Notes under the pieces: model-generated
Database searches by the model: none
What the model was told of the DNA's origin: nothing
What the model saw: only the letters and a program-made list of their open reading frames with translations
Position numbers and translations under genes: made by a program
Source: a virus
IMG/VR virus record: IMGVR_UViG_3300018416_000075
Span: 1 to 29,956 of that record
Length of the DNA: 29,956 nucleotides
Reading direction: 5' to 3' (one strand)
Shown here: piece by piece, positions 491-29,765 of the stretch
Layout of the letters: each line of letters begins with the position of its first letter
How positions within the stretch are numbered: the stretch's first letter is position 1

Positions 491-534
491 GTTTAAACAG
501 GGGGGTTGACAGCCCCCCAGCATCACAGTACCAT
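491..534 (+). promoter_or_regulatory. Sigma-70 promoter with upstream GTTTAAAC
   Basis: The -35 box is TTGACA at 506-511 and the -10 box is TACCAT at 529-534, with a 17 bp spacer. GTTTAAAC at 491-498 ends 7 bp before the -35 box, the same distance as at the promoters at 1182 and 2747. A G6 run (500-505) and a C6 run (513-518) flank the -35 box as an inverted repeat. The promoter would drive the genes from 576 onward. Confidence 0.8.
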
Positions 535-553
535 CGCACTTCGCATCACCCAT

Positions 554-573
554 TCAACAACACAGGAGCAGGA
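554..573 (+). repeat. Conserved 5' leader with ribosome binding site, copy 1
   Basis: TCAACAACACAGGAGCAGGA lies just upstream of the ATG at 576. An identical 20-mer occurs at 1237-1256, two bases before the ATG at 1259, and its first 11 bases recur at 11748-11758. It contains the AGGAG ribosome binding site and an A/C-rich unstructured stretch. It is probably a shared translation-enhancing leader of early transcripts. Confidence 0.65.
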
Positions 574-575
574 CC

Positions 576-935
576 ATGATGATCAAACGCAAGGCTTACC
601 CGGCAATCGACACGATGCTGAAGAACCTCGCCCCGGCCGTGCGCAAGCATGACGTCAACCTCGTAGTCGCCACAGCGGTGGAAGTCCGCACGTACTGGCA
701 AGGCGGCAGCCGTAGCAGTTACTGGCGCTGTGACACCAACGGATTCGGCCAGCAGCTGCGTGGCCAGAACAACCCGGAGCCATTCGGAAAGTTCGATGCC
801 GAGCAGCATCTGCACCGGGTGGTGGACGGCACGGTGATCGTCAAGCTGGGCACGTGGCAAGGCAGGACTGCAGTGCCCACGATCTACGCAACACCCACGA
901 TGTTTAAACAACTGGGAGTCGAGGAGGTATCATGA
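576..935 (+). CDS. Hypothetical early phage protein
   Basis: A 119-residue protein, first gene of the transcript from the promoter at 506. It starts at ATG 576 behind the conserved AGGAGCAGGA leader; a second in-frame ATG follows at once. The sequence alternates basic helical and mixed segments with no signal peptide, membrane segment or motif that I recognise. A GTTTAAAC site at 902-909 is read as Phe-Lys near the C terminus. The last codons contain the strong ribosome binding site (GAGGAGGT) of the next gene, and the ATGA overlap couples the two. Its position suggests an early host-takeover role, which is only an inference. Confidence 0.75.
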   Translation: MMIKRKAYPAIDTMLKNLAPAVRKHDVNLVVATAVEVRTYWQGGSRSSYWRCDTNGFGQQLRGQNNPEPFGKFDAEQHLHRVVDGTVIVKLGTWQGRTAVPTIYATPTMFKQLGVEEVS

Positions 936-1159
936 TCAAGACCTATGAGATGCAGGCGTGCACCGAGGCCGAGGCCGCCCGTGCGGTACGTGCAGTGCTC
1001 CGCACCGGCGCGGCTGAAGTCCGGGTGGTGGATGATCGCGGCGGTAGCGCATCGTGGATTGTCCTCGTGCAGGCTGAGCGCCTGTCTGATCTGCCAAGGG
1101 TGCGCGGCATGACATGGATGACACCCGAGGAGCTGGCCGTCCCGATAGGGTGGCAGTGA
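932..1159 (+). CDS. Hypothetical small protein
   Basis: A 75-residue protein translationally coupled to the upstream gene by an ATGA overlap behind a strong GAGGAGGT ribosome binding site. The predicted fold is alpha/beta: MIKTYEMQAC, an Ala/Arg-rich helix, then strands with GGSASWIVLVQAE. I recognise no family. It is the last gene before the promoter at 1182, so it ends the first short operon. Confidence 0.7.
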   Translation: MIKTYEMQACTEAEAARAVRAVLRTGAAEVRVVDDRGGSASWIVLVQAERLSDLPRVRGMTWMTPEELAVPIGWQ

Positions 1160-1166
1160 GCCCGAC

Positions 1167-28232: not shown

Positions 28233-28233
28233 A

Positions 28234-28695
28234 CTATTCTCCGGTGGCCACCTTCACTGTGTTTAAACAGGTAGCATACTCTTGTAGTTTCGCCGAGAAG
28301 TTATCCCACTGACTCTGGTCCATCCCGAATGCTGATCTAAGCTGTGCGGCTGTGAAGTCTCCCGCATTAAGACGGTTGATAATCCACCCCGCTATTGCCA
28401 TCGTCACGTTCTCAGTGGAGTCCTTGTACTCCTGCCGAAGCCGAGCAACCATCTCCTGAGTCGTGCTGAAGCGTGCCGGCGGTGCCAGGTCATCGAAGAT
28501 CATCTTCCAGAATTCCTGCACCGCCAGGCGATTGAACACCTTGGACTCCCTCTCTGCCGCGACTGCGTTGTAGTCTATCCCATCAGGTACAGACCAAGTA
28601 CGTGTGGCCACTTCTCCCTGGGCATCCGAATAAACCGCGCGTATCCACCGTTCGCCGTTTGCCTGAGTTGGGCCAACGTAAACAACGTACGACAT
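28234..28695 (-). CDS. Hypothetical virion-module protein
   Basis: A 153-residue protein started at the ATG two bases after the upstream stop (28697); a longer frame inside the upstream gene gives a Cys/Arg-rich N terminus and is unlikely. The N-terminal part (MSYVVYVGPTQANGERWIRAVYSD) is beta-like and the rest helical (VAVQEFWKMIFDDLAPP-like, WIINRLNAGDFTAAQLRSAFG). It resembles no family that I can name. Its start lies in the minus-strand structural unit. GTTTAAAC at 28261-28268 is read Leu-Asn near the C terminus. Confidence 0.65.
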   Translation of the reverse strand: MSYVVYVGPTQANGERWIRAVYSDAQGEVATRTWSVPDGIDYNAVAAERESKVFNRLAVQEFWKMIFDDLAPPARFSTTQEMVARLRQEYKDSTENVTMAIAGWIINRLNAGDFTAAQLRSAFGMDQSQWDNFSAKLQEYATCLNTVKVATGE

Positions 28696-28696
28696 C

Positions 28697-29086
28697 TTAC
28701 GGCGCGGCTGTGTACGACAGTGACGACACAGACACCGTCTGACCAGCACCAATAGTCGTATTAGTGATCTCGATATCACCGCCTCCACCTGTGGCCGTGA
28801 CTGAACCAAAGACTATCGCGACGTTATCCCGATCACGTAATTCGAATTTTGTTACTGGTGAAGCATTGCCGGTCGCGTTGGTGTCGCTCGTCACTGCATT
28901 AAATGTAGCCGTACCACTCGCTGCCGCTCCTGCCGCCGGGTTGCCGAGAGGCAACGTTGCCACTTCAGCATCAGCGGCTGTGAGCAATACCAAGTCGCCC
29001 TGCGCATCGGTTGTACCGCCGTCGAGATCATCGACCACGGCGTCGGCCAGCGTGTTACGCATAGCTGTTACATGAGTTACCGCCAT
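28697..29086 (-). CDS. Small Ala/Thr/Gly-rich virion-associated protein
   Basis: A 129-residue protein started at ATG 29086 with AGGGG upstream; the longer frame to 29125 would read into the previous gene. Its sequence is beta-rich and low in charge (GNPAAGAAASGTATFNAV, VTATGGGGDIEITNTT). This composition is typical of phage decoration or tail-fibre-associated proteins found in structural modules. It overlaps the upstream gene by 10 bp. No motif identifies a function. Confidence 0.65.
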   Translation of the reverse strand: MAVTHVTAMRNTLADAVVDDLDGGTTDAQGDLVLLTAADAEVATLPLGNPAAGAAASGTATFNAVTSDTNATGNASPVTKFELRDRDNVAIVFGSVTATGGGGDIEITNTTIGAGQTVSVSSLSYTAAP

Positions 29087-29349
29087 GAGAATACCCCTTT
29101 GAAAAATTTCTTGATCCGCTCCCATAGCGTGAGTTTTTTCACTTCCCCAGCCGTGGTCGCCTTGCCGTCCACTGTGCTACGCAGACCACTGGAGTCGACG
29201 AGCACTACCTTTCCCTCCGGCAGCCAGAAGTCCAGCACCTGCTTGGCCAACTCCTGTGCGTGCGGGCGGATGATGTAGATCATCCCTTTGTTGTAGCCAC
29301 TCTTCAAAACTTCAGAGTAGAAGTCTTCGAGTACTTCGAACCTGACCAT
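29077..29349 (-). CDS. Hypothetical protein of the virion module
   Basis: A 90-residue protein started at the ATG that overlaps the upstream stop (TAATG at 29347-29351), with GGAG just before. The first part is alpha/beta (MVRFEVLEDFYSEVL, GMIYIIRPHAQELAKQVLDFWLPEGKVVLV), and the end is a basic amphipathic helix (WERIKKFFKGVFSWR), which could associate with membranes. It may be a small structural or accessory protein. Function unknown. Confidence 0.65.
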   Translation of the reverse strand: MVRFEVLEDFYSEVLKSGYNKGMIYIIRPHAQELAKQVLDFWLPEGKVVLVDSSGLRSTVDGKATTAGEVKKLTLWERIKKFFKGVFSWR

Positions 29350-29765
29350 TAGCCAGCTCCCATGTACACGTTGCAACTGGAACCAGCGGCGTTATCACAC
29401 GACGCCTGGACTCGAATACCATAGAGACCGCGTGTCTCCATGAGGAACCATCCGGTGGTGCTCGCTGCCAGTGTTGTCAAGTCACCACTCGCGCCGATTA
29501 TAAGGCCGGCGGGCGAAGTGAAGTCGGCGGCTGCGTTGTAGATCGTGATCCAGGATCCATTTGGGTGGGCCTTGACCTGAATTTCAAACGCGTCGAACGC
29601 CTGTCCGCCTGTGGTGACTTCGAACAACATGCGGATTGTGTCCGCCATATCTTCGTTGGTCGTAAGCGTTGTCAGTCCTGCCTGCGCCACGCTTACCGAC
29701 AGATTGTCGGCATAGACCTGCCGCTCGTTTAAACGCTTATTGCTGTAGATGTTTTGTTGAGCCAT
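29349..29765 (-). CDS. Small beta-rich virion-module protein
   Basis: A 138-residue protein starting one base after the upstream stop, with GAGGAAAT before the ATG. Segments such as FEIQVKAHPNGSWITIYN and GWFLMETRGLYGIRVQAS are beta-rich, as in small phage head-decoration or tail proteins, with two late cysteines (SCDNAAGSSCNV). GTTTAAAC at 29727-29734 reads Leu-Asn (KRLNERQ) near the N terminus. A structural role is likely from composition, not proven. Confidence 0.65.
   Translation of the reverse strand: MAQQNIYSNKRLNERQVYADNLSVSVAQAGLTTLTTNEDMADTIRMLFEVTTGGQAFDAFEIQVKAHPNGSWITIYNAAADFTSPAGLIIGASGDLTTLAASTTGWFLMETRGLYGIRVQASCDNAAGSSCNVYMGAG

Follow-up and report, generated by a model that had tools for sequence, protein, structure and literature searches.

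What is the function of an 8-bp palindrome, GTTTAAAC, that recurs along a virus genome within genes as well as between them? The question is raised by IMG/VR record IMGVR_UViG_3300018416_000075, a fragment of 29,956 bases (the window, meaning the whole stretch analysed) that represents about half of a ~60 kb genome, judging by relatives. Counted over the whole window, GTTTAAAC was present in 37 exact copies, the first at position 491 and the last at 29727, whereas Markov models predicted 0.05–0.10 copies (orders 1–4, motif masked) or 0.11–0.13 copies (orders 1–2, unmasked). The initial annotation had claimed an excess over a chance expectation below one, and these backgrounds confirm it. It had also proposed a count of the other 8-bp palindromes; the next most common had only 5 copies. 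All 37 TTTAAA hexamers of the window were within GTTTAAAC, as claimed, with none elsewhere against 0.2–1.0 expected. Only 2 one-mismatch variants of GTTTAAAC were found in the window; the exact copies are therefore not accompanied by a fringe of degenerate ones.

The symmetry that the annotation had seen in the flanks was also recovered. A pyrimidine (Y) occupied position −1 in 31 of the 37 sites and a purine (R) followed the site in 32 (63 of 74 half-sites, P = 3e-10). To this we add C at −6 and G at +13, present in 47 of the 74 half-sites of the window (background 0.29, P = 5e-10). The extended dyad is about 20 bp, C-N4-Y-GTTTAAAC-R-N4-G, and two-fold symmetric flanks of this length are expected of a unit recognised by a dimeric binding protein. 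An RNA hairpin was rejected on inspection, as only two bases can pair around a 4-nt loop. A restriction target would be depleted, as the annotation had argued, and we observed a strong excess of the site in the phage rather than avoidance. As a separate observation, the 6-bp palindromes GCATGC, GAGCTC, AGCGCT, AAGCTT, CATATG, TCTAGA and CCTAGG are absent from the entire window while others of like composition are common; this looks like restriction-site avoidance. The 37 copies of GTTTAAAC, to which no strand is assigned, are as follows.

491–498: contains the TAA stop of open reading frame 260–496; TTGACA-17-TACCAT starts 8 bp downstream
902–909: within 576–935 (Phe-Lys); next start ~22 bp on
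1167–1174: intergenic; TTGACA-17-TAGAGT 8 bp downstream
1363–1370: within 1259–1804 (Phe-Lys)
1799–1806: contains the stop of 1259–1804; following ATG at 1807
2249–2256: contains the stop of 2012–2254
2732–2739: contains the stop of 2270–2737; TTGACA-17-TAAAGT 8 bp downstream
3019–3026: within a gene (Phe-Lys)
3681–3688: within 3268–3723; next start ~32 bp on
3785–3792: within 3720–4019
3905–3912: within 3720–4019
4219–4226: within 4016–4270; next start ~37 bp on
4973–4980: within 4749–5048
6093–6100: within 5746–6174
6472–6479: within 6183–6653 (Leu-Asn)
6907–6914: within 6872–7717
7946–7953: end of 7690–7956; DNA polymerase gene 12 bp on
8483–8490: within the DNA polymerase gene
9344–9351: within the DNA polymerase gene, in an insertion that relatives do not have
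10523–10530: within 10260–10781
10788–10795: intergenic, directly 5' of the dNMP kinase gene ATG
11708–11715: intergenic, upstream of the helix-turn-helix (HTH)-exonuclease gene
11836–11843: within the HTH-exonuclease gene
11889–11896: within the HTH-exonuclease gene (Leu-Asn)
13819–13826: within 13040–14956
15066–15073: within 14966–15163 (Leu-Asn)
15655–15662: within the ribonucleotide reductase gene (Leu-Asn)
16917–16924: within the PD-(D/E)XK nuclease gene
17660–17667: within 17469–17792
18686–18693: within the SNF2 helicase gene; no Phe-Lys there in relatives
20400–20407: within 20263–20520
22049–22056: within 20988–22307
23096–23103: within the DUF927 helicase gene (Leu-Asn)
24581–24588: within the DUF927 helicase gene (Leu-Asn)
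26449–26456: intergenic, 13 bp before leftward gene 25636–26436
28261–28268: within leftward gene 28234–28692 (Leu-Asn)
29727–29734: within leftward gene 29349–29765 (Leu-Asn)

The left (early) part of the window was richer in sites, with 18 of the 37 in the first 9 kb, and both transcription units contained them. From 11.9 kb rightward the spacing was unusually even (coefficient of variation (CV) 0.31, P = 5e-5, for a region picked after the fact). Twenty-nine sites were wholly within genes, 4 were intergenic and 4 were on stop codons. Those within genes were read as G-TTT-AAA-C (Phe-Lys) in 20 cases and as GT-TTA-AAC (Leu-Asn) in 9. TTTAAA encoded 20 of the 30 Phe-Lys pairs in the window, and all 20 of these were in the motif; as TTT and AAA each account for only ~23% of their own codons, a codon-usage artefact was rejected. 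Relatives mostly lacked the residues that the motif imposes on the products of the polymerase, SNF2, nuclease and ssb-like genes. Because Phe-Lys and Leu-Asn are forced at residues that relatives do not conserve, sequence comparison indicates that the sites are maintained at the DNA level and not for the protein, which bears out a test that the annotation had suggested.

Sites were also frequent ahead of genes, with 16 of the 37 no more than 100 bp upstream of a gene start compared to 6.2 expected for random positions. Three of the 37 sites precede promoter-like sequences.

506–534, plus strand: promoter-like TTGACA-17-TACCAT; GTTTAAAC centre 11 bp before the −35
1182–1210 and 2747–2775, plus strand: two further promoter-like TTGACA-17-TA boxes; GTTTAAAC centre exactly 11 bp before each −35

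A scan with the promoter-context pattern returned no match. A symmetric site in excess, maintenance at the DNA level and proximity to early-gene starts, all found here, are traits of a dispersed phage operator system of the general kind.

The same word was found in other phages. The IMG/VR viral_contigs were scanned with a pattern of two GTTTAAAC ~270 bp apart, and at least 119 stretches were recovered; among the matches listed these held 1,495 copies compared to 31 expected, and 61 loci had ten or more. The same scan with a composition-matched control palindrome, CAAATTTG, gave 120 loci without an excess (after removal of the two selected per locus, 72 copies were left vs 67 expected in all), and GTTTAAAC was not enriched in these loci (12 vs 30). 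Gene content varied widely among the motif-rich loci, and the Y/R flank recurred across GTTTAAAC phages. Several cultured phages carried the site (20 copies in Dinoroseobacter phage R26L, 16 in Pseudanabaena phage Pan1, 7 each in Enterobacter phage Arya and in Mica, and 4 in Persinger), the hosts of motif-rich isolates being alpha-, beta- and gamma-proteobacterial and cyanobacterial. The annotation had stated that no known system has this sequence; this stands for described systems and fails in that many other phages carry it. Sites were evenly spaced in R26L (CV 0.38, with 0 of 20,000 simulations as even) and Pan1 (CV 0.51, P = 0.0035); in other motif-rich records they clustered in early regions with a CV above 1. 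Within the motif loci a site was no more than 100 bp upstream of early/middle genes for primase (11/19), GATase (14/21) and SprT (16/37), compared to none of 20 terminase-like and none of 18 lysin genes, although lysin genes do carry internal sites. The whole genomes of R26L (L370+L371) and Pan1 (L390–L393) also contain a second dispersed palindrome, ATAA-N5-TTAT (14–15 copies vs 0.02 expected), perhaps a promoter or operator class.

Which protein might recognise these sites? The commonest family among the motif loci was an SprT-like protein with a C-terminal zinc ribbon, in which the motif KQ[ST]TR[ML]xK is followed by Cys pairs. The family corresponds to PHROG 6361, and the ribbon alone to PHROG 34373. 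A hidden Markov model for the ribbon family matched 46 of 80 motif loci and 20 of 39 held-out motif loci (66 of 119 among the matches listed), and it had no match among 125 loci taken from three other protein scans or among the 120 control-palindrome loci. When whole records were considered, all 12 motif-rich contigs (19–54 copies) encoded the family, and G027, with 3 copies (chance level), did not. The ribbon was likewise absent from 20 of 20 polymerase-family records, which had the protease part at most. In the reverse direction, all 80 contigs selected solely by their SprT-like protein had at least 3 GTTTAAAC, with 517 copies compared to 15 expected, these contigs being close relatives of one query and not independent. 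In motif-dense lineages the protease part was degenerate and the HExxH site lost, with the ribbon retained, and two motif loci had the ribbon alone. Among isolates, the five having the ribbon motif plus a Cys pair have the site, whereas the five that had lost one or both have none. The AlphaFold model of the SprT-like protein (mean pLDDT 88) has a minigluzincin-like domain plus the ribbon, and in Foldseek it resembled abylysin (probability 0.98, E 0.06). The SprT gene of both Arya and Mica has a −10-like box at its start, closely followed by GTTTAAAC, an arrangement consistent with self-control. The ribbon family is our best candidate for a trans-acting partner of GTTTAAAC. Searches of open-licence papers found no description of the motif or of SprT proteins with palindromes, and the data point to a genome-wide DNA-binding system that was undescribed before.

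We propose, with a probability of about 0.5, that a DNA-binding protein encoded by the phage, most likely the PHROG 6361/34373 zinc ribbon, recognises GTTTAAAC as the core of YGTTTAAACR and silences or times early transcription. In this model the phage would keep YGTTTAAACR at many places in its genome, within genes and at gene starts, and the C-terminal ribbon of the SprT-like protein would bind these sites as a symmetric dimer. Protein bound at early/middle gene leaders and along transcription units would act both as an operator complex and as a block to elongation, such that early transcription would be silenced or timed. The even spacing in sparse genomes suggests a possible added role in organising DNA. 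More tentatively, and at somewhat less than even odds, the site and protein may form a cis-trans system passing between unrelated phages, in which YGTTTAAACR is a universal code and its reader a ribbon family that arose from SprT-like proteases; each phage would seed this code genome-wide, even at a cost to protein sequence, so as to silence transcription or organise its DNA in very different hosts.

Several observations weigh against ribbon-mediated control of early transcription. Most sites are within genes, which is odd for operators, and to our knowledge zinc ribbons are not known as readers of 8-bp palindromes. Phage 4A has the ribbon motif and a Cys pair yet a single GTTTAAAC, and the SprT-family phages Zeta1847, VroomVroom, CN2, PSA20 and Epa5 have none; in five of these six phages the ribbon motif or the first of its Cys pairs has been lost. 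The C at −6, strong in the window, is weak in other GTTTAAAC phages. The motif loci are partly interrelated, and counts from them are not independent and their P values are descriptive. Finally, the 30-kb window fragment contains no ribbon gene, so for this phage the gene is a prediction about the missing half of the genome. One gene gives a hint that it may lie just outside, to the left of the window.

576–935, plus strand: gene with a homologue (29% amino acid identity) that in contig L226 directly follows the SprT/zinc-ribbon gene

Relatives of the window's own replication genes bear on the origin of the sites. The window encodes a family-A DNA polymerase, ribonucleotide reductase, SNF2 helicase, PD-(D/E)XK nuclease, dNMP kinase, DUF927 helicase and HTH-exonuclease, and then leftward genes. 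Its replication module is shared at 24–37% amino acid identity with Pseudomonas phages Rollin and KPP25, Rhizobium phage RHph_TM3_14A and many IMG/VR contigs, and complete relatives of the module are about 60–68 kb; SNF2 and DUF927 protein scans gave no close relatives. None of 26 relatives identified by DNA polymerase was rich in GTTTAAAC. Many of them carry another dispersed palindrome, mainly in the early region and just before gene starts. These dyads are 14–24 bp and differ in sequence between relatives.

RHph_TM3_14A: GTTACCTN4AGGTAAC, 32 copies
G003/G005: ACGGTGTGCN2GCACACCGT, 12–16 copies
G009: GTGTTAACGCGTTAACAC
G023: TGTTAGTCCN2GGACTAACA
G017: TGTGTAGGCATGCCTACACA
G007: GATACGCGCGTATC
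G013: GACTGGCCGTTAACGGCCAGTC

As so many polymerase relatives have a dispersed palindrome of their own, comparison of these genomes indicates that dispersed dyad sites are a habit of the window's phage group, with changing sequence. Two further repeats were rejected as dispersed sites: GAGG-N6-CCTC of G002 is a tandem repeat, and AAAAGGTA in Rollin is a local cluster. The latter, a AAAAGGTA...TACCTTTT repeat cluster near the record start (L053 positions 1–500, L079 end), resembles an origin of iteron type or a control region at a terminus. In G009 (L080–L082, L018), GGTAGTGTAGT recurs ~25 bp before several dyad sites and is perhaps a promoter element. In RHph_TM3_14A a 183-amino-acid protein with apparently repeated HTH motifs (MN988472 24217–24768; L054 12218–12769) has one GTTACC-type dyad within its gene and another 4 bp ahead of the start, and it is a likely candidate for the binder of that dyad. 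The 'putative integrase' of the same phage (L054 30240–33323) is a homologue of the window's DUF927 helicase-like protein.

Other candidate binders were considered. Three GTTTAAAC sites are clustered in 190 bp around the start of the HTH-exonuclease gene (11708–11896), and G007 has two copies of its own dyad at the start of the homologous gene. The HTH-exonuclease itself (11798) was rejected despite the three sites around its start, as 80 contigs with that gene hold only 9 GTTTAAAC. Integrase-based immunity was rejected because no integrase or resolvase (PF00589, PF00239) was found in the 30-kb fragment or its relatives except G007, and ParB/parS was rejected because no ParB-type protein (PF02195) was found in the window fragment or 11 relatives. 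One alternative candidate within the window is the following.

22307–22609, plus strand: XRE-like HTH protein of 100 amino acids, adjoining the DUF927 helicase; place conserved in relatives

It is possible, though doubtful, that an HTH dimer of the window's own phage family, such as this protein, binds family-specific dispersed operators, the match of GTTTAAAC to other phages being convergence on a short core. The differing dyads near early-gene starts of the polymerase relatives, which are presumably bound likewise, would fit such a history, as would the conserved place of the HTH gene and the window's extended dyad, which is stronger than that of other GTTTAAAC phages. However, convergence is unlikely to have given dozens of phages the very same 8-bp core and Y/R flanks, and the HTH gene of relatives lies away from the sites and in RHph_TM3_14A is not at that place. 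The location of most sites within genes, the occupation of both transcription units and the regular intervals between sites in R26L, in Pan1 and towards the right of the window would suit a protein that condenses, loops or segments the DNA for replication, packaging or protection, with secondary effects on transcription. We consider this unlikely in view of the clustering in early regions of other motif-rich records and the preference for early-gene starts.

Modification of GTTTAAAC by a phage methyltransferase or other enzyme for self-recognition appears quite improbable. A strict 8-bp palindrome with almost no near-variants is like a modification target; on the other hand, the flank symmetry reaches out to 20 bp, no methyltransferase was found among the scanned window proteins, and self-marking does not require enrichment. 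The symmetric preference beyond 8 bp and the relatives' dyads of 18–24 bp speak for binding rather than methylation. HIP1 is a precedent for dense genome-wide palindromes, and the phages might mirror such a host motif or the site of a host binding protein. This explanation is very improbable: a three-copy pattern searched over 84,980 species returned 54 stretches and no genome enriched genome-wide, and Phormidium, with 203 GTTTAAAC in 7.5 Mb, had fewer than its reversed control. We rejected a host-wide motif on these grounds. The initial annotation had allowed for either a phage-encoded or a host protein binding the sites; symmetric flanks, DNA-level selection, unrelated phages and the ribbon family argue for the former, and the lack of an enriched bacterial genome and the diversity of hosts argue against the latter.

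The dispersed sites known from phages each belong to a single phage group, whereas GTTTAAAC is dense in many unrelated phages, whose hosts include alpha-, beta- and gamma-proteobacteria, and it accompanies a single protein family of unassigned function, PHROG 6361/34373. If the ribbon binds GTTTAAAC, a widespread phage protein would gain a function, the loss of the protease in some lineages would be explained, and phages carrying the system would be recognisable from sequence alone. A DNA-binding requirement can leave its mark on the amino acid sequences of many proteins simultaneously, and a common dispersed code across phage lineages would, if true, be a new way for phages to organise their genomes.

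How does this arrangement compare with known systems? The window has the dense GTTTAAAC of the PHROG 6361/34373-linked phages. The N-terminal domain of the candidate protein is like that of SprT/Spartan-type metalloproteases (SprT-like PF10263), but motif-dense lineages differ in having lost HExxH and conserving only the ribbon. HIP1 (GCGATCGC) of cyanobacteria is an 8-bp palindrome at very high density, mostly within genes of the host chromosome. Both words are dense 8-bp palindromes mostly in genes, and enrichment of GTTTAAAC was seen in phages only. The HIP1-type parallel drawn in the annotation is disfavoured, as the hosts of motif-rich isolates are diverse and no enrichment was found among the bacterial genomes checked.

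The annotation's other parallel, the stoperators of mycobacteriophage L5, is reasonable for function and fails as membership. L5/Cluster A stoperators are 13-bp asymmetric sites oriented with transcription, located in promoters and short intergenic spaces and bound by a monomeric HTH repressor (PMC9283540). The systems are alike in having many genome-wide copies and sequences that differ between relatives, and the proposed tie of GTTTAAAC to phage-controlled transcription would be a further likeness (PMC9283540). Unlike stoperators, GTTTAAAC is a perfect palindrome with symmetric flanks, lies mostly within genes (29/37 wholly so) and is the same word in unrelated phages. The SAS of Cluster K mycobacteriophages are 13 bp, non-palindromic and 3–7 bp from start codons, not within genes (PMC3203893), whereas GTTTAAAC is palindromic and mostly within genes; the likeness is that of a repeated element near starts of non-structural genes, and the extended form (ESAS) has inverted repeats (PMC3203893). 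SPBRE of Bacillus phage SPbeta is a 15-bp element bound by the tyrosine-recombinase-like MrpR and, unlike GTTTAAAC, is found in promoter regions of one temperate phage group (PMC10516654). Like GTTTAAAC it is a repeated element of a phage genome that was first put forward on sequence grounds only; binding of SPBRE by the phage master repressor was demonstrated afterwards (PMC10516654).

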